From NCBI GenBank assembly GCA_963971425.1, contig OZ020517.1:24004462-24068461 (forward strand): a DNA stretch of 64,000 nt. Reading direction: 5' to 3'. Positions 1 to 63,485 of this stretch are shown here, in pieces. The notes below the pieces were generated by a model. That model saw only the letters and a list, made by a program, of their open reading frames with translations, did not search any database and had not been told where the DNA came from. The position numbers were made by a program, and so were the translations under genes. Within the stretch, counting starts at the first letter, position 1; each line of letters starts with the position of its first letter. This DNA comes from Bryoerythrophyllum caledonicum (Eukaryota; Streptophyta; Bryopsida; Pottiales; Pottiaceae).

Positions 1-670
1 CATTCCAAACCCTAATCCATCCTTCTAGTTGATTGGTTTGCAAAATATTTTCTAATTACGGAATATTTGATGGGACTATCAATTTGAAATGTGCAAGTGG
101 GAAATAAAGGGGTAGGATCTTATTTAGATTTCAAATTATGTCCACATTTTTCTTGCAAATATGGAAAGGGTAGTTCTCCAAGGAATGACACGTGTCCATA
201 TTTCAAGATTGTATTTATAATTAGGTCCATCATGTAGAGAGGATGAATAAAGTGGCGCCCCTTATTAAGTGCTTCACTAAAAGACAAGGGAGACCATGTC
301 CACCTACCTCACATGCTCCACTAGGGGGTTTGACCGGACTTAACCATGGTTAGAGGCTCATGGGTTGAGGTTGAGATGAGAAAACGCAGCCATCATCCCT
401 CACTTCCATCCATGGGAGGACGAGTGAGGGGGCCAATTCTCCCTGCCCCTCTTTTACTTGGTATGTTTTCTTTCCTCTTAAGTTTTACTTTTCCTGGATT
501 TGCTAATTAGGTTTCCATTTCTGCTTGCGCTTTCTTTGTTTCTTTCTTTTGTCGCTTTGATTTGTGTTAATCCGAGGCTTTTGTTTCTGTTTGTGCGGAC
601 CTAGGGTTTGTTTCGATTTTCTTGTGTGGACTGCCATCTGAGTTGGTTGTGTTGTGCTTTCATGCAGTTC
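1..670 (+). promoter_or_regulatory. 5' flank and probable promoter/5' UTR of the nuclease-kinase gene
   Basis: No coding frame is convincing here; the short open frames on either strand lack family signals. The stretch lies directly upstream of the first coding exon and becomes pyrimidine-rich after about position 440, as plant 5' UTRs often do. A TATA-like string (tatttataatt) sits near 211. The promoter role is inferred from position only. Confidence 0.35.
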
Positions 671-720
671 GTAAGTGTTGCTTGCGAAGAAGCTCTTTCC
701 TTTCATCTTTTTTGATTCAG
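671..720 (+). other. probable short intron in the 5' UTR
   Basis: A strong donor (gtaagt at 671) is followed by a pyrimidine-rich tract and an acceptor (tgattcag ending at 720), two bases before the ATG at 723. At 50 nt it is short for a plant intron. It does not change the protein. Confidence 0.4.
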
Positions 721-722
721 CT

Positions 723-2775
723 ATGGAGGGTGTCTTCTTCCAATCAGACACACTGGTGGTGCCCGTTTGGACTACTCCTGATGGCAAGATCGACTTCGGA
801 GAACTCGGTACAACGTTTGAGTTGATTCCAAAGTCAATCCGTCTGTGTGGCTATGCTTCTCCGAAAAATGGCGACCTATGGTCAGTTGCTTCTTGGACGC
901 AGATCAAGAACTCGTTGCGTGTAGCAGGAACGAAAGAAGATCCCGTGATGGTCACTGGTCGTCCAATATCTGAAGCTCCTACAGGTATGTGCTCCTTCGT
1001 GCCTTGATCTTTAAATCTGAGTGGTACGTTTGAACCTTGAGGGGATTCGTTGCCTTTGGGGTGTTATTCGGAGCTTCGTTTTGAAGCCTCGTTTCTCAAT
1101 TAGTGGATACTTCAGTTTTAGAGGTATCTGTCTTGGTGTTCTCCATTGTGATTTCTACAATGTTGCTCCTTATTTCAAAGAGGGCTCTCTTTGTAAATTT
1201 CTTAGAGGTTTTTTTTTTGGTCACTTGGTTGTTAGGTTTAGGGTATCAAGGACAGTGACTGTTACTCTTGCTTTGGCCTTTGTATGGAAGGGACTCTTGC
1301 AGCACCATGTGTCCTGTGTATTCTTGTTTCACTTGGTTGTTGTGGTTGTTGCTTGTGTTCCACCTCAAGCAGGCGATTCTATAGACCGTTCTGAAGCTTG
1401 GATTAAGCACATGCTGCTCCCGCAGCAACCTGAGCTCCCCAAAAATAAGGCCGACCTCACAAAGGTATTGTTCCCTGAGCCGCATCAGAAGCTTCCTGTG
1501 TCGAAGCACGTCTATCACCAGGTACTACCAAGGTGGCCCGACTTTGCGGCGGAGTTTTTAGTCGAGACAGATGGTTCAGTGCTTCCTTGTGTTATAGGAG
1601 GCTTCCTGACAACTGGTTCTAAGTCTGTACGCACCGAGATGAACACTACACTTGTCGTTGGAAGCTGGCTAGAACGATACTTTGAACTATTCGAAGAGTA
1701 TAGCCGGGATGATACAAAGCTCGAGATTTCGTTTAATTCTAGTGAACGGCGGCAGGGGAGTTACTCCGGAACTATTGCACCCCGGAAAAGGCCTGATACA
1801 ATTGTCATAGCATCCGGATGCACCTTCCTTGTAGGTGAAGACAAGGTTGCTGACCGGCATAAAGCTGATGATGATATTATTTCCAATATAAAGCCGCTTA
1901 ATCCAATGTTTTATGGGGAGTTGGACTTTTTTCTAGGCTACATAGCAGGTGGCTCCATGTTTCAGTGGCTATACATCGGTAAGAACGGTTCCAAGGACGT
2001 ACACCGAGTAGGTGCATGTCTTGACCTGTCAAATATTCGTGGTCGCTGCTATTTTGCACTCAGTGTGGGCTATGCCTGCCAGCTGTTGAGGACAATGGCA
2101 GACTCTGTCCCACATGTCCCAGGCCGTCGCGCCATGTTTTCTAAGGACGAATCACCAGATGGAAAGAGGGTAATTTGGTTTTATTCTGACAGAGTGGTTA
2201 AGCACATTAGAGACTTTGATACCTACAGTGCTGAGCAGGGGACGAGTCTTTCTGAGATACAGAGGGCTTATGGTGCTGCAGAAGGTTCGTTTCTTCCGCG
2301 GGCAGATACAGGGCCCACCGTTAGTGCTCATGGAATCTACAAGGTTGAGTGTGGTCCTCTTGGATACTCGTGCTCATTGAAGTCCGAACAGGATTGCAGG
2401 TGGATGGCTCAGTGTGTGTGCCAAGCCCTTAGCATCCTCCACGGTGCGGGCCTGGTACACAGGGATATCCGACTCCCGAATATTGTGCGACTGTCAGAGA
2501 TGAGATTCATGCTTATCGACCTTGAATCTGTAGCAGAGTCTCCTTTTAGATTGAGTGAAGGATTTCGACACTTCTCACACTGGAATTCGGGGATGTTGGA
2601 AGGCAATCTATATACGCCCTTTTCAGACATGTATAGTTTTGGGAAAATCTTGGATGGAGTCCTTCCTTATGGGAGGACAGCACTTGCTGGTGATTTTCTC
2701 CGGAAGCTCACTAGCAAACAGCTGAGCGCATCGGACGCATTGCAGGATCCTTGGCTATCAGAGCTCATGCTATAG
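723..2775 (+). CDS. Crinkler-like PD-(D/E)xK nuclease-protein kinase fusion protein
   Basis: Two exons, 723-984 and 1373-2775. The donor acag|gtatgt and acceptor caagcag| join in phase 1, giving 554 residues. The first ATG after the acceptor at 720 is taken as start. Residues 1-88 form an unrecognised header. Residues 140-300 carry a restriction-endonuclease-like signature: an acidic helix (T175-E176 onward), RPD with D229, and GEDK with E243 and K245. The C-terminal half is a divergent kinase: VVK (K364) as possible beta-3 lysine, VHRDIRLPNIV (D452, N457), LIDLES in place of DFG (D470), DMYSFG (D630-type helix F motif near 507) and a final DPWL. The HRDIR..N and LID(F/L)E pattern is what I know from kinases of Crinkler-type effectors, some fused to such nucleases. 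No glycine-rich loop is obvious, so activity is uncertain. No signal peptide is seen. It converges on the coiled-coil gene. Confidence 0.75.
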
Positions 2776-42835: not shown

Positions 42836-43860
42836 CTATAGGTTTATTAATTTTCTAACCTCAGTTTTAGCTAGAACAGTCCATAGGTCTGGATTTAGGG
42901 TCAAGGTTTCTAAATCTTTGAAGTTCAGGGCTTTGTAGGAGGCTAGGTTTGGGATGCCCGAGAATTTTTTTTCTATACACTTACAGTTCTGAAATCTTGC
43001 CTTGTAAATATCGTCACTCTTGGGGAGTTTGTATCGAATGATACTTGGGGAGTCATATCCAAGGTATATGGCTCTAGTTCTGTGGGGTGTTAAGGTCTTT
43101 TGTTTTGGGTCAAAAATGGGGACCCATACTTCGCAGCCAGAGGTGCGTAAGTGTGCAATATGGGATATTCTACCGGAAGCTAGTTCGAGCGGGGTTTGGG
43201 TTTGTAGAAGCTTTGGCTTGAACCTAAGTAATACAGCGGCGTGTAAAACAGCATGATCCCACAAGGTGAACGATAGGTTTGCATAAAATAAAAGAGGTCT
43301 AACTATGAGCTGATTTTTTTTTATATATGCTTCTGCTAGACCGTTCTGGGCATGTTCATACGGAACCGAGTAAGTCAATTCTATCCCGGATGCTACACAA
43401 AAATCTTTGAAGGCTTGGGGTTTGAATTCTAGAGCGTTATCCATTCTAAGATAACAAAACTGATTGTCAGGGAAGTGGTTCCGGAATCTAATAAGCATCG
43501 CTAAGGTTTTAGGGAAGACCATATTTCGGGTTGTAAGTAATGAAACCTCAGCATGTCTCCTAGATGCATCAACAAGCACAAAGAAGTATTTAAACTGACC
43601 GGATTGGGATGTAATGGAGCCGCACCAATTGCCATGGAGGCGGTGTAAGGCGGTTGGCATCTCTGTCGGGAGCTTCCACCTCGACGGTTGTCTTATTAGC
43701 TTCCCTTGTATGCATGCGGGGCACTCATCCACGCGCTTTGTGTCGTTGGTGCACAGGTCGTGGCCTATGAGTTGAGGGATCATCTTTCTCATCATCGTCG
43801 TTCACGGATGGCCTAGCTGGCGGTGCCACAAGTTGGCCTTGCTGCTGGTGGCTAGGAACG
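42836..43860 (-). pseudogene. Copia integrase with pre-integrase zinc-binding region
   Basis: Begins with NLWHRQLGHP near 43830, then CPACIQGKLIRQPSRWKLP. The core has the D,D,E triad: D in YFFVLVDASRRH, D in CYLRMDNALEFK and E in HAQNGLAEAYIKK. A C-terminal GIYLGYDSPS-like motif (AIYLGYDSPSIIRYKLP) follows. One stop separates the LGHP region from the rest. Confidence 0.87.
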
Positions 43861-48891: not shown

Positions 48892-50468
48892 ATGTCTCAT
48901 GTTCATGCTGCCTCAACTTCTACAGGACCTGAATTAATGGAAGTAATAATAGAGAGTGTTTGTGGTACGTTGTCCACACAAAAGCGGTCTAATGTTGATT
49001 TCACTTCCTTCCCAAGCCAAAAGAAGGTCAGTGCAACTAGTTTGCCCCAACCTCTATATTGGTTGGCATTTAACACATTAAACACCATGGCTATGACAGA
49101 AAACAGTCTAAAAAAACCAATTCACACCATAAATGAGTTTGTGGAGATGAGCTGAATAAAGAAGAGGCAAAAAAGAAGGTAGAAGTTCTTCCCTCTTTCC
49201 CACATGCGATTTAAGAGGAATGGCCCTCTAAGAGATTGGATGAGAAAGACGGTCATCATTTCAAACTAACTCAACTTCCAAGTGAAGTTGAGGCAGATGA
49301 AAATGGATTTGCCCTTGACTATCATGTCGCAGTCTTTTTCAACTTGGAGATTTGAAAGTGTGGACAATAGATGTTGTTCAAGAGATGGTGAAAGAAAGAT
49401 TGATAGCCATGGGAATTGAACTTGAGGAAATTTTAGGGGAGCCTTTAGCAATCGCGTGTTATTATAAAACAAACAGATGGAGTTACAACTTACACTATTA
49501 AAATTCATATCAAAATCCTAAGATAGATGGGGTTGATCTCTTTCGTGGCTCTAGATCATTTATTCTAGCTCTTGGAGAAGGAATCTCAAACCGTGGCAAG
49601 GTTTGCAAAAGTTATGACTCTTTAGCACTTGCCAACCTTCTTTCCGTCAAAATATCTGGACCTAACCTAGTCGATTAACAATGGTATAAAATTCACAAAG
49701 AAATTGTCCAAGAAGGTTTCGCGAGGGGTTTTGATTATGACGTCACCAACATACAGAAAATAGTTGACTTAGAGTTTGAATGGGTAATAAAAACCTTCAT
49801 CCGAACAAGCTCAAAAGATCAAAGACCATAAGGTGGCACTTTGCAACGGAGGAAAAAATGAGTGACAAAAACAAGGTTAAAAAGAACGCATTATTTCTTA
49901 TAGTGAGAAATGTAAACAAAATAAAAAGCATTGATGAATTAGAAAAGAGTCTTGAGGCGTATTTTGGTAAAGAGAATGCGAAGGATGTCTTTTTCAAAAT
50001 GGAGCATGGCAAATACGTCAGGATTTGCAACATCCACTGCTTCAATCCCGCGGTTCACAAGAAACATGTTAACACGAGCGGCAAGATATTGGGAAAATAT
50101 GTTGAATTTATTTTTCACCCCAAAAGTCTGAATGGCATAAGTGCACCTTCCACCAAGCTCGTCACCAAATGGGGTTACACCGATGTAAGCTCCGCGATAG
50201 CTAACGCGGTGATTGTATTGGAAAATGCTTCAAAGTTGGATTCTCAAGAGAAAAGTCACAACAGATAATTCAAAGCAAAGTGAAGTACGGCATCGATCAC
50301 AGTATCGTTAAAGTTCGACGAGAGACGACCACAATGAAGCAAAAAATTGCGGAGGAAGCCCGCCAATATGGAGACACTATCCAAGCGATATCCGCACGAA
50401 CACTCCGCGGTGAGATGGGCACACTTCGGATGACTCTCATCCAAACTATTAAGGCTCATGAAGCATAG
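48892..50468 (+). pseudogene. LINE ORF1 protein (RNA-binding type), broken
   Basis: Starts MSHVHAASTSTGPELMEVII, with DFTSFPSQKKVSATSLPQPL and TINEFVEMS, then a stop. It resumes in other frames (DLFRGSRSFILALGEGISNR; SYDSLALANLLSVKISGPN). The piece 49780-50268 is open and contains an RRM-like fold pattern, NALFLIVRNVNKIKS ... YVRICNIHCFNPAVHKK ... GKYVEFIFHPKSLNG. A last frame, 50280-50468 (KVRRETTTMKQKIAEEARQY), is coil-like. I believe related proteins are repeated in early-diverging plant genomes, but cannot confirm this here. Confidence 0.65.
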
Positions 50469-50953
50469 GCATTCGAACGAGAGGTTGAGGCATCTCGGGA
50501 GGAAGATACATCTCATAAGAGTCTGTTCATCATGGAAAAATAAATGGATATGACAAACTAGTTTGTTCACCCATCGCGGTGGTATATAATGTAATATAAT
50601 TTTTGTACTGATAATAAAAATTCCAAAAAGACATATATAAAATTTCAAAATCAAATAAAGTATTACTATAATACTATAGTATATTTATATACCAAACAAA
50701 AAAACCAAAACAAAAAATAAAAACTTCTTATAAACAAACAAAAAGAAGAAATATATTTCTATGGTACATTCAAAACCAAACACAAAATGAATATAAAACA
50801 CAATACAAACAACACATCAAAATACACACCACACAACAACAATAATAATAACAATACCATCAACGCTACTCACACTTCGACCAATAATCCTATTACAATT
50901 AGCAACAATATCTCATTACACATTTAACGCATCAAACTTTCTTTTATAGATGT

Positions 50954-50980
50954 GGAGATATTGAAAATAACCCAGGTCCG
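50954..50980 (+). other. 2A-like ribosome-skipping motif at the ORF2 N-terminus
   Basis: The codons read GDIENNPGP, an exact match to the 2A consensus D-[VI]-E-x-N-P-G-P, preceded by HLTHQTFFYRC. The frame is open from a stop at 50900 and continues MPNLLQKHPPLY, stop, then coding-like sequence (YFTPSTIKLYPEYQHLTQSF) in the same frame toward the endonuclease. In other LINEs such motifs near the start of an ORF are known to split the product co-translationally. This copy is decayed and probably not translated. Confidence 0.75.
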
Positions 50981-51678
50981 ATGCCTAACCTTCTCCAAAA
51001 ACATCCACCATTATATTGACGACGTGCAAAAACATATTTTACTCCTTCTACAATTAAATTATACCCTGAATATCAGCATTTAACACAATCTTTTGTACAT
51101 TTCCTTAAACCAAACCATAACCAACGCATAGAATAAAGCGGTCAATTTCCATACCTCAATCAATATATAAATAGTTTAAATATTTACATAGCCCTTTATA
51201 TTTGATACACTATAATTATTATTGTTCGTCCTTCAGTAATAACTTGCAATCATATCCTTTCTTATCCAGATAATATCAACATTACAATGGACTACAACAC
51301 TTCTGCAAAAGATGACTTTCCTCACAAATATCCCCAAACAACACATCCACATAACACATACATATACAAACTTCCAAAATAACTTCAACCACATTCTTAC
51401 AAATAAAACCTCAATCCATGAAGAACTATATCACTTCTTATGCACTGAAATATCAATCCCATACTAAAAAATCTCAAAGATATATTCCCTTATCTATCCG
51501 AGAACTTACTAAATGAAACTTATCGCATTTTCCAACCTATACCTGAATATTTACACCCCCTTCCCCCCCTTCTCCCATCGCACCACCTTTAAAATCCATA
51601 CTCACTAATAGAACATAAACCCACATTATCACCTGGAATACCTCCCACCTCCACACCTCACTTCCGAACATTCAAAAC

Positions 51679-52632
51679 ATGCTTCATAACACTACAAACA
51701 CTCCTGCAGTCATAAACATCCAAGAAACAAAATTAACTGCAAAAAAATCAACCACATATATACAAAAATTATTCCTAGATTATAAACTCATCTTTTACAA
51801 CACACATACACTTACACGATGCATTCAATGCAAATTTTCCTATACTCCTGCTAGAGCAAGCCTTACTACCATGATACATAACAAATATGCATTCCCTGGT
51901 AATATTTCAAAAATTCCAACACTAGCCTCCATCTCACCATATCTTCAAATAATCCGAATAGCAAACCAACCATTACAAACTTGGTTAATGATAAACATCT
52001 ACATGCCTACACATCCCAAAGATCTTAGACTCATTAGTTATATCAAAAACACTATTTCTAAAACTCTTAACAACCATCAAAATCATGTACATCTTTTATG
52101 TGGTGACTTTAATAGAGATATTGCTCTAATTGGCCGTACAATTGATAATATATACATCAACCCAACAACTGACGATATACAATGCAAGTTATTCACCACA
52201 AACAACAATCTAACCTACATTCCTACAAATACATCTTACTCAAAACAAGGAGGTCTCCACTACGCTACCACTAGCCTAATTGTCGGATTCTACATGAATT
52301 CTACTAACCACCTCAACATCACATCAACCACTAATACCAGTCTAAATCTAAATTTAGACCATTATTCCATTCGCTTACATTTACCACCAAACACACTAAT
52401 ATCTAGATTACCCCCTCCGGTGAAAACACCAACCAAAAGAATTCTCAATCCCATTCCTCCACATAACATTTCACTCTTCATAATTCAATTTATGAAAACA
52501 AATTCACATAGCATTGATAATCTCATAGATACCAACTTTCACTTAACACAGACACAATGGCACGCAACATGTATAACCTTGGAAACACTTATCCCTAACT
52601 TATCTAATACCCCTGAAAAATATATGCTCTGA
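51679..52632 (+). pseudogene. LINE ORF2 endonuclease domain
   Basis: 317 open codons with VINIQETKLTAKKS (catalytic Glu), INIYMPTHPKDLR and LLCGDFNRDIALIG (Asp/Asn), matching the apurinic/apyrimidinic-type endonuclease of LINEs. A later NLDHYSIRLHLP corresponds to the (S)DHxxI end motif. The first ATG is arbitrary; the domain starts slightly upstream in the damaged ORF2. Confidence 0.82.
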
Positions 52633-53286
52633 AACTCCTCTACCACAACTCACCAAACGCACGGTGCACCACTCAACAAGGTGGTTTTCTCCCTAGAAAA
52701 CTCTCTAAACAATGGAAAAAACACATTTCTACATATCACTTTATACGGAAAATAATCTATATAGTTAATAACAACAACAACTGGAGAAATCACCCTATCA
52801 TAAATACAATCTAAAATCACATTTATGTTCAAATACCACCACCTCCGGCCAACTCTATACCACACAAAGATTGGCTCCAAAATATTGCAATCATTGCCAA
52901 AAACGCTAATCACTTCATTAGAAAAATCACCACCAAATACTCCAGAGATTCTGTTAAAATAGCAATCTCTAAATACAATTTTTTTTCAAAAGCCCAAAGA
53001 AAATAAACAAAAGAGTATTCAAAGACAACACCTCATGTCCATTAGATTGAATTATAGATCGACACAACAATCTAATTACAAACCCTGAAGATATTGCACA
53101 CGAAATATATTTACAACAATCTATAAATAACTACCCCACTATTCCTACTTGCTATTATCAACCACAACATCCTTCCACTTGTACATGTGGAGTGCGACAA
53201 TACCCTTGGCACGACTTAGATGGCTTTACACTTGAAAAATGTGGGAAACAACAAATTCTTCTCTATGATTAATTTATCCAAGAACT

Positions 53287-54063
53287 CCACGATTTATGCT
53301 TAAAAACCTTGGTAATAACAAAGCTCCTGGTCCAGACAAAATCCATTATTTTATTCTCAAAAATCTTCCTTCGCGTCTCCAAATCTTACTATTTACATTT
53401 TTCAAACATTCCTATAAACAAAAACAAATCCCAGCCTCCTAGAAGACTAGTCTAACAATTTTACTACATAAAAAAGGAAATCCATCATATTTATCCAATC
53501 ACAGACCAATTGCACTTGTAAATACAATATATAAATTATTCACGAGCACTCTAACATCCATCTTATCCTCCTACGGTGAAAAACACTGCATTCTTCATAA
53601 CAGCTCGGAGGGCTTTAGAGCAAAAAGAGGAACAACTAGACAACTTCAAACTATCATTGCTGCCCTTAAAGACGCCAAGTTTACAAACCAAGACATTTAT
53701 ATTTCGTATAAAGATTTCAAAAATGGTTTTGGATCCATTGATCACGCTAGACTACTTGCTATCATGCACAACTCAGGGTATCTTTTAGACGCCGTTGCTC
53801 TCATTGGTAGTATATACTCTCAATCCAATACTACATTTATAGGTGAACATTTTGGACAAACTCGCCCAATTCCCATTCAACGAGGAACTATCCAAGGAGA
53901 CACACTAAGTCCGTATCTCTTCATCATTTTCCTTGAACCATTACTCCAATGGCTGCAATGTGGTAATAATCGTTATACTTTTCAAACATCCAAAACTACT
54001 ATCAATTTTATTACATATGCTAAAGATCTAGCACCTCTAACAGCCCAATTACATTCCATATAA
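53287..54063 (+). pseudogene. LINE ORF2 reverse transcriptase domain
   Basis: One frame with an internal TAG (near 53443) carries NKAPGPDKIHYFILKNLP, NHRPIALVNTIYKLF, EGFRAKRGTTRQLQT, the palm D block in IYISYKDFKNGFGSIDHARL, GTIQGDTLSPYLFIIFLEPL and YAKDLAPL (54016-54027). The last should be YADD, so the catalytic pair is broken. This is a non-LTR reverse transcriptase. Confidence 0.85.
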
Positions 54064-61988: not shown

Positions 61989-63485
61989 ATGGAAGCAGCA
62001 CCGAACGAGAGCGCCTCGGCCACTCCGCCGCGGCCGCTGAGGAAGGTGATGGTGTTCTGCGACGGGACGTGGTGCGGCCAGCTGACAGGCACAAACACGA
62101 ACGTGAAGATCCTCGCGGACAAAATGGCCCATCGCAAAGTCGCCTCCGGGGAGCGGTTCGAGGATGACGACACCAACATCGTGGGCTGCTACTTCGACGG
62201 CGAGGGCGTGCAGGGCGGGTTCGCGGACTACATCCTGGACGGCGCCTTAGGCGGGCGCATCAAGGAGGACTGCCTGGAGGCTTACAGATTCATCATGGAC
62301 GAGTTCGAGGCCTGCGACGGCCACTGCGAGGCGTGGCTGATCGGACTCAGCCGCGGAGCCTACACCGTGCGCTGCGTCGCGGGCATGATCAACAACTGCG
62401 GCCTGATCGGCAAAAAGAAAATCATGGGGTTGGCGGACCTAGACCTCGTCGTGCAGAGCGCGTACAGCTACTACCGCGACCGAAACGCGCTCTACATGCC
62501 CAACAGTGACTACATGATGGACTGGAAGCAGCGCCACAGCCGCGCGATGCCGCGCCCGCCCGTGAAGTTCATGGGGCTGTTCGAGACGGGGGGCTGCCTC
62601 GGGATCCCGACGCTTAACCCCGGCATGGGCGTGGACTTGTACGGCGAGCTCAACTTCTACGGCAAGGCGGATGAGGGCGCGTCGGCCGTGTCTGGTGAGG
62701 TCGAGCGCGTGTACCAGGCGCACGGGGTCCACGACCGGTGCTCCGTCTTCAAGCCCTGTCATGTGAAGCGCGACAGGACGAACGAGGAATTCTCCTACAA
62801 CAAGCAGGGCATGAACCTGGAGTACAAAACGGAGGAGCTCTGGTTCCCTGGCGCGCATTACGACCTGGGCCGCCAGAAGTTCATGTTCTACAAGTCGCCG
62901 AATCTGCTACCCGCCAAACCCCAGACCGACGGATTCCGAAAACTCGCCGCGCAGGTCGCCAGCAACCTCGTCCAGCGAGCGGTCAGCTTCGCGTCCACTC
63001 GCGTGCTGCGCATCCCGGACATCCACCCTAACTACGATTTCGCAAACCTGGTTCTCGCCTGGATGACTCGCAAGATGGCAGAAACGGACCCTGTCGCGTT
63101 CGCGACGCTCCACGACGAGGTGATGAACTCGGACCTGGTGGCGCGCCCGCCGCCGGAGTCGCGCGCGACGCGGTTCTTCAACTGGGTGACCATGAAGCCG
63201 GTCGCGGTCGAGAACGACGCATATGATCGTTTTATGGATAACGCGTACTTTGGATTCGATTTCCTGCCATTCGCGCATCGGTTCCTGGTGGGCTTTTTTA
63301 GTCGGTACATCCTCGTGGACCGCACAATCCGGGATCCGCCGCCCGGCCTCGAGCCGCCCGTCAGGTTCCTTTCGCCCGAGCACCGCCTCATCGGCGACGT
63401 GGGGTCGTACCGGTCCCGCAGCTACGACTTGTACAAGCAGGAGCTCGCCATGCAGAACCGCGACGTAGTGTTAGTCGACGAGTAG
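61989..63485 (+). CDS. DUF2235 alpha/beta hydrolase (Tle1-like catalytic fold)
   Basis: 498 codons without a coding intron, very GC-rich at third positions and unlike the AT-rich flanks. Family motifs in order: KVMVFCDGTWCG (residues 19-30), the nucleophile elbow GLSRGAYT (S121; family usually GFSRGA), FMGLFETGG (E199) where the family normally has a W/F-D-T-V-G acid motif, and LWFPGAHYDLGR (H290) matching FPG.H.D.GG. The C-terminal ~190 residues are less conserved. DUF2235 proteins share their catalytic domain with Tle1-type phospholipases and are common in fungi and bacteria. Lipid or ester hydrolysis is the inferred activity. The start is the first ATG after the acceptor at 61973. The change of the usual Asp to Glu could alter or weaken catalysis. 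No signal peptide or membrane span is obvious. Confidence 0.88.
   Translation: MEAAPNESASATPPRPLRKVMVFCDGTWCGQLTGTNTNVKILADKMAHRKVASGERFEDDDTNIVGCYFDGEGVQGGFADYILDGALGGRIKEDCLEAYRFIMDEFEACDGHCEAWLIGLSRGAYTVRCVAGMINNCGLIGKKKIMGLADLDLVVQSAYSYYRDRNALYMPNSDYMMDWKQRHSRAMPRPPVKFMGLFETGGCLGIPTLNPGMGVDLYGELNFYGKADEGASAVSGEVERVYQAHGVHDRCSVFKPCHVKRDRTNEEFSYNKQGMNLEYKTEELWFPGAHYDLGRQKFMFYKSPNLLPAKPQTDGFRKLAAQVASNLVQRAVSFASTRVLRIPDIHPNYDFANLVLAWMTRKMAETDPVAFATLHDEVMNSDLVARPPPESRATRFFNWVTMKPVAVENDAYDRFMDNAYFGFDFLPFAHRFLVGFFSRYILVDRTIRDPPPGLEPPVRFLSPEHRLIGDVGSYRSRSYDLYKQELAMQNRDVVLVDE

Follow-up and report, generated by a model that had tools for sequence, protein, structure and literature searches.

Most of what is known of Crinklers concerns their use as weapons by plant pathogens. 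The wider class of Crinkler/RHS-type (CR) proteins is described as a header followed by diverse C-termini, with a restriction endonuclease (REase) coupled to a kinase in about one-sixth of the proteins and a P-loop NTPase combined with an REase in slightly more than a quarter; toxicity is attributed there to the nuclease, which the kinase is taken to regulate (PMC5289972). The same account connects CR proteins to transposons and RHS proteins and already reports CR/Crinkler-like proteins from land plants, the eudicot headers being of the Myb type and their proteins possibly unsecreted and active within the cell (PMC5289972).

The gene described here lies in a window of 64,000 nucleotides (the whole stretch analysed, G000:C4:24004462-24068461) of the 437-Mb, 894-contig genome assembly of Bryoerythrophyllum caledonicum. 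It has a plant-encoded CR architecture, which is itself known in land plants; the sharing, recombination and hypervariability of its header are visible only genome-wide. With CR proteins, as far as that source describes them, the family has in common a modular header joined to an enzymatic C-terminus, a nuclease motif accompanied by a kinase, members of P-loop NTPase type and occurrence in land plants. It differs from them in a header that shows no LxLFLAK and no match to PF20147, is hypervariable and recombining, and is shared together with upstream sequence as a cassette whose end falls within a phase-1 intron. It also resembles oomycete CRN8-type kinase effectors, the kinase C-terminus of CRN8 having later been annotated with an REase domain (PMC5289972), but unlike these it is plant-encoded and has neither the LxLFLAK header nor evidence of secretion.

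The first-pass annotation had placed the gene in a plant context, and the genome agrees with it. The LEAFY domain (PF01698), a marker of land plants and their algal kin, has seven matches in the genome (best E 1.3e-27) and none in any of 14 control genomes; because it is present, we take the genome to be that of a land plant or close kin. In its mode of working the family would be similar to plant NLR repertoires, in which clustered copies combine a variable recognition part with a conserved signalling part and undergo gene conversion. It differs from NLRs in that neither exon matched NB-ARC or LRR when scanned against Pfam.

Gene model and the enzymatic exon

Read directly from the sequence, the gene consists of exon 1, a GT-AG intron and an exon 2 of 2 nt, 466 codons and a stop (Table 1), with the donor ACAG/GTATGT at 984/985 and the acceptor CAAGCAG/GC at 1372/1373. 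Exon 1, the intron and both splice sites are kept in eight copies, the window's and seven paralogues. We regard the gene model as real, with splicing predicted from the sequence: ATG, donor, acceptor and stop, and the same order and splice sites in the seven paralogues, bear out the spliced two-exon gene that had been proposed. In L002, L003 and L007 the exon-2 frame is closed within the intron and exon 2 itself is open; in-frame stops occur in exon 2 of three of the eight window-type copies carrying the window header.

Table 1. Features of the gene in window coordinates (L001 coordinates minus 126); residues are those of the exon-2 protein P0002
Feature	Position	Strand	Observation
Header cassette: upstream sequence, exon 1 and intron start	449..1076	+	Common to L125, which has another C-terminal ORF (L001 575-1202, 89%)
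Exon 1, header	723..984	+	87 codons + 1 nt, phase 1; ATG at 723; 33 matching rows genome-wide
Hypervariable header part, codons 1-56	723..890	+	65/168 sites vary, 8 copies
GT-AG intron	985..1372	+	Near-identical across copies: 0.8-2.6% divergence from 7 copies
Exon 2: nuclease-like half and kinase half, with stop	1373..2775	+	Sequence, P0002
Second hypervariable patch, exon-2 residues 41-125, just 5' of the nuclease motif	1495..1749	+	76/255 sites vary, pN > pS
RPD, first acidic residue of the PD-(D/E)xK-like motif	1789..1797	+	17/17 aligned copies
GEDK, ExK of the motif	1834..1845	+	E in 17/17, K157 in 16/17
Divergent protein kinase domain	2182..2772	+	PF00069, C-half alone 31.9 bits, cut-off 31.7
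Kinase lysine K276	2200..2202	+	17/17 aligned copies
HRD catalytic loop	2458..2466	+	16/16 readable copies
Metal-binding Asp of LIDLES (replaces DFG), D382	2518..2520	+	15/15 readable copies

The conservation counts come from an alignment of 17 copies that includes the window's, contains five with in-frame stops (written X) and omits the short fragments L013, L015, L016, L017 and L019; adding 88 to a P0002 residue gives the full-protein numbering used in the first-pass annotation (D141, E155 and K157 are its D229, E243 and K245). The kinase Asn N369 is kept in 15 of 16 aligned copies, and the catalytic residues listed are intact also in the five copies with stops. Since they are conserved across the 17 copies, the motifs are not a product of chance. 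Among seven representatives, the farthest of them 18% identical, the only invariant columns of the N-terminal half are L28, P41, R139, P140, D141 and E155, and its only charged invariants (R139, D141 and E155) stand in PD...ExK spacing. This half is probably a DNA-cutting domain, the nuclease reading being drawn from the motif.

The kinase half carries the features of eukaryotic protein kinases, namely the VAIK lysine, HRD, Asn and a second Asp, with DFG reading DLE, DLD or DFD. Whole P0002 scores 28.7 bits against PF00069, under the cut-off, and the relatives L010 (38.6 bits), L021 (44.0) and L139 (36.1) pass, L139 also passing the fungal kinase family PF17667. L018 fails PF00069 (23.3 bits) and passes PF07714 (24.0 bits, cut-off 23.1); the truncated frame of L020 reaches neither cut-off. 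Of the nuclease-kinase fusion that had been read in this exon, the conserved motifs and the Pfam-recognised kinase therefore stand, while the restriction-endonuclease fold found no support: the N-terminal half had no significant match in Pfam or the PDB, and the AlphaFold model of exon 2 from the single window sequence is uninformative (pLDDT 34.9).

PADLOC matches were confined to the kinase part, save for one weak methyltransferase model (E 0.016), and the PHROGs search gave two kinase families. At least 164 relatives occurred among 590 stretches of prokaryote contigs, with the alignments of the best 80 confined to query residues 314-465, in the kinase part. No relatives of P0002 or A1 were found on viral contigs, and none on plasmids.

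An exchangeable and variable header

The genome search with exon 1 gave rows that merged to 31 places, 22 of which have an assignable C-terminal exon 3' of the header, assignment being by same-strand neighbourhood and splice phase; the other nine have none. A window-type nuclease-kinase exon follows the header at 8 of the 31 places, a divergent nuclease-kinase at 3 (L020, L021/L141, L139) and a close P-loop NTPase exon, in which GTPGIGKS was read, at 6 (L121, L124, L127, L128, L130, L140). Four further headers (C884:11875, C15:45195, C15:182446, C15:472207) precede an exon 54% identical to the NTPase, its motif not read, and the ORF behind the L125 header contains VVVEMKKP and may encode a further nuclease. 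Against Pfam, the NTPase-type exons gave only weak ATPase matches (E 0.085-0.26).

Five of the nine places without an assigned exon (L120, L122, L133, L134, L143) keep the intron-side segment of the NTPase copies, and the header is split over two rows, as if frame-broken, at two of the 31 places (L143, L146). All 20 full headers L119-L138 are open, with an ATG and a G/GT donor. A loose filter found candidate phase-1 acceptors in the NTPase, L125 and L021 exons and passed none in L139. Identity to the window header is as low as 38% in L139 and L140; even so, L140 and L127 have NTPase exons that are 99.5% identical, and the sole DNA homology found between these two copies starts 338 bases after the L127 header. 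Exchange is seen from the other side in L009, where a window-type exon 2 (82%) is preceded by a first exon of another kind, 71 codons + 1 nt long, with a GT donor and the same phase. Here DNA homology runs from 37 bases before the acceptor to 15 bases past the stop, plus one 24-base piece; the first exon is ubiquitin-like by eye, with no Pfam match. Judged by these copies, header and C-terminal exon are exchangeable cassettes in one family, and the Crinkler-type architecture claimed for the window gene is supported by the joining of one header to different enzymatic C-termini, the broad feature of CR proteins.

The narrow feature of oomycete CRN effectors, a ubiquitin-like header with LxLFLAK (PF20147), was not found. 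None of nine headers matched PF20147 at E 10, and no LxLFLAK is visible by eye in the window header (P0001), so that the earlier remark that the header is unlike the usual CRN header holds. A genome-wide PF20147 search also gave no match, in a run in which its control matched nowhere either. The header fold predicted from the single window sequence is uninformative (pLDDT 60); Foldseek returned 37 matches at E 10, the best at E 1.9, and none against the PDB at E 0.001. Because its header has neither LxLFLAK nor a PF20147 match, we file the gene under the broad CR class and not with the oomycete CRN effectors. Literature listings on Crinklers with bryophytes, Sphagnum, subtelomeric location or gene conversion showed no such plant header, the entry under Sphagnum being, by its title, on RXLR effectors of an oomycete; a header that is hypervariable and shuffled as a cassette may therefore be novel in plants.

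Further header and C-terminal types may exist. At L147, a header (49%) is followed after 849 bases by an ORF ending FLGSGATSNVL, which is kinase-glycine-loop-like and perhaps a further C-terminal type. Open NTPase exons (98%) at G000:C1:4630921, C1:4672657 and C862:66199 have no window-type header row and perhaps carry other headers. Upstream of the nuclease-kinase exon of L011 are two open stretches, L011:3340-3678 (-) and L011:2675-2953 (-), both followed by a GT that could serve as a phase-1 donor; in the first, VVHVLV stands shortly before the donor, recalling the HVLVxxP end of Crinkler headers, with no Pfam match.

The shared stretch can be larger than the exon. L136 shares L001 575-1310, and L125 and L126, whose C-terminal ORFs differ, have in common an upstream-plus-header cassette of ~650 bp, near-identical from -300 to +347 around the header (3/258 differences in the header) and unrelated outside it on both sides. 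The PHI-like statistic for 16 distinct headers (72 informative sites) is 0.202, the permuted mean being 0.323 (0/2000 permutations as low); neighbouring header sites thus travel together, from which it follows that header segments recombine. On a tree of 21 header copies the C-terminal label changes eight times for six labels, a count given without a shuffled baseline and with labels that include truncated and unknown copies (L135 counted as truncated). Of the 29 header places on large contigs, 15 are less than 1 Mb from an end, where 6.4% would be expected, the copies not being independent and contigs without a header being left out.

Both hypervariable segments (Table 1) stand out from the intron and 1 kb of 3' flank, where 103 of 1387 sites vary (p 6e-25 for the header, 1e-20 for the exon-2 patch; the values are a guide only, the eight copies being related). 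The remaining four coding segments have 9–12% variable sites, against 7% in non-coding sequence (p 0.02–0.21). In the closest pairs the header changes end inside exon 1 and the flanks are near-identical, most clearly in L121 and L124, which differ at 25 of 258 header bases and at 1 of 800 flanking bases. Among the ten pairs of five NTPase copies, seven differ at 25–34 of 258 header sites and three (among L124, L127 and L128) at 0–3; pairs with L130 differ by 4% upstream as well. The pattern is weak in the truncated pair L120/L122 (14/258 in the header, 16/752 outside, p 0.01), and L133-L135 show no header differences. We conclude from these alignments that the header recombines and is hypervariable.

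In the five open window-type copies, exon-2 codons 41-125 have a pN of 0.158 and a pS of 0.065 (bootstrap 95% interval of the difference 0.039–0.144); no clear excess is seen in the kinase half (0.035 and 0.026). Exon-2 NG86 dN/dS is 1.25–2.60 in the 15 pairs of six recent copies and 0.58–0.66 against L010. A site-class test on exon 2 gave 85 N : 15 S in the five open copies (p 0.0065), 92 N : 19 S in all eight with stops scored as N (p 0.018) and no departure from neutral in the three broken copies alone (54 N : 12 S, p 0.13). By these comparisons, residues 41-125 of exon 2 carry excess amino-acid changes. For header codons 1-56 the corresponding values are 0.187 and 0.117, with an interval for pN-pS that spans zero; the site-class test on the header showed no departure from neutral, and single-hit codons had no N excess. 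Since header pS is raised too, positive selection is rejected as the sole cause of header divergence, which is not due to amino-acid selection alone. Diversity-generating retroelements work by adenine-directed mutagenesis, and a mechanism of that style is rejected as well, the header differences spanning all six base-pair classes.

Possible function and competing explanations

We favour, with rather better than even confidence, the reading that the window gene encodes a plant CR conflict protein with a diversifying recognition header, joined by splicing of a phase-1 intron to a PD-(D/E)xK-like nuclease and a divergent kinase. The protein would remain within the plant cell, where binding or sensing of a changing partner, e.g. 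an invader protein or nucleic acid, would fall to the variable header and to the patch preceding the nuclease motif; the variability of the header argues for recognition of this kind. By analogy with CR proteins, partner binding would release the nuclease, the kinase would set its activity, and the cutting of DNA or RNA would halt either the invader or the cell it has infected. New headers would continually arise by gene conversion among the copies, of which many lie close to contig ends, with the enzymatic part preserved. Any role in defence is putative.

Several other explanations have to be weighed, not all of them exclusive of CR identity. The family could be a selfish or transposon-like set of nucleases (homing, drive or toxin-antidote) copying between chromosome ends, with header differences due to ectopic recombination and not to recognition. 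The concentration of headers within 1 Mb of contig ends (15/29) and a shared cassette that extends from 5' of the gene into the intron fit this, as does the link of CR proteins to transposons and RHS proteins in PMC5289972. However, header changes in the closest pairs stop inside exon 1 between near-identical flanks, and all 20 full headers examined are open, and we consider the selfish explanation unlikely. To decay under concerted evolution, with conversion homogenising most of the gene and old header variation left by chance, we give less credence still: exon-2 stops in three of eight window-type copies and a kinase half with pN close to pS agree with it, but the catalytic residues are intact even in the five copies with stops, pN exceeds pS in exon-2 residues 41-125, and the 20 open headers count against it too.

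Slightly less probable again, in our judgement, is export by the plant of proteins that act on fungi, oomycetes or neighbouring plants, with the header as the delivery part, the role proposed for it in pathogen Crinklers. The header/C-terminus architecture is that of secreted Crinklers (PMC5289972) and fast header evolution fits a changing target surface, yet the header starts MEGVFFQSD with no hydrophobic signal stretch by eye and does not match PF20147, and eudicot CR proteins might be unsecreted according to the same source. The least credible is that RPD...GEDK belongs to no nuclease and the gene is a plant kinase of the ordinary sort. Pfam indeed recognises the kinase only, the N-terminal half having no significant Pfam family or PDB chain match, but the invariant charged residues of that half are solely R139, D141 and E155, in PD...ExK spacing, kept in relatives down to 18% identity.

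A bolder reading than that of a CR conflict protein, and one that we hold less likely than not, is that the plant maintains its copies as a set of Crinkler-like nuclease executors: templated gene conversion would rewrite their header, which would be reassorted onto different enzymatic exons, giving an NLR-independent recognition or self/non-self system. If such recognition, diversifying by exon-cassette exchange, exists, the Crinklers of pathogens might represent a borrowing from it. A plant's own recombining set makes it testable whether these proteins act in intracellular defence and whether fast header turnover reflects recognition, and the copies with near-identical flanks and different headers are a natural record of variable-domain exchange.

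Other parts of the window have features of their own. A retroviral SH3-like domain above the cut-off and a sub-threshold integrase core at 42836-43795 (-) mark a retrotransposon remnant. A 4-kb stretch at 50001-54000 has low GC and strong negative GC skew (-0.36, -0.42), and an ORF within it (51679-52632) gave a weak, sub-threshold endonuclease-reverse-transcriptase match. Near the 3' end, a 498-aa ORF at 61989-63485 (+) strongly matches PF09994, the catalytic domain of T6SS Tle1-like phospholipases (E 1.9e-39), so that an effector domain of bacterial type is present in this plant genome.
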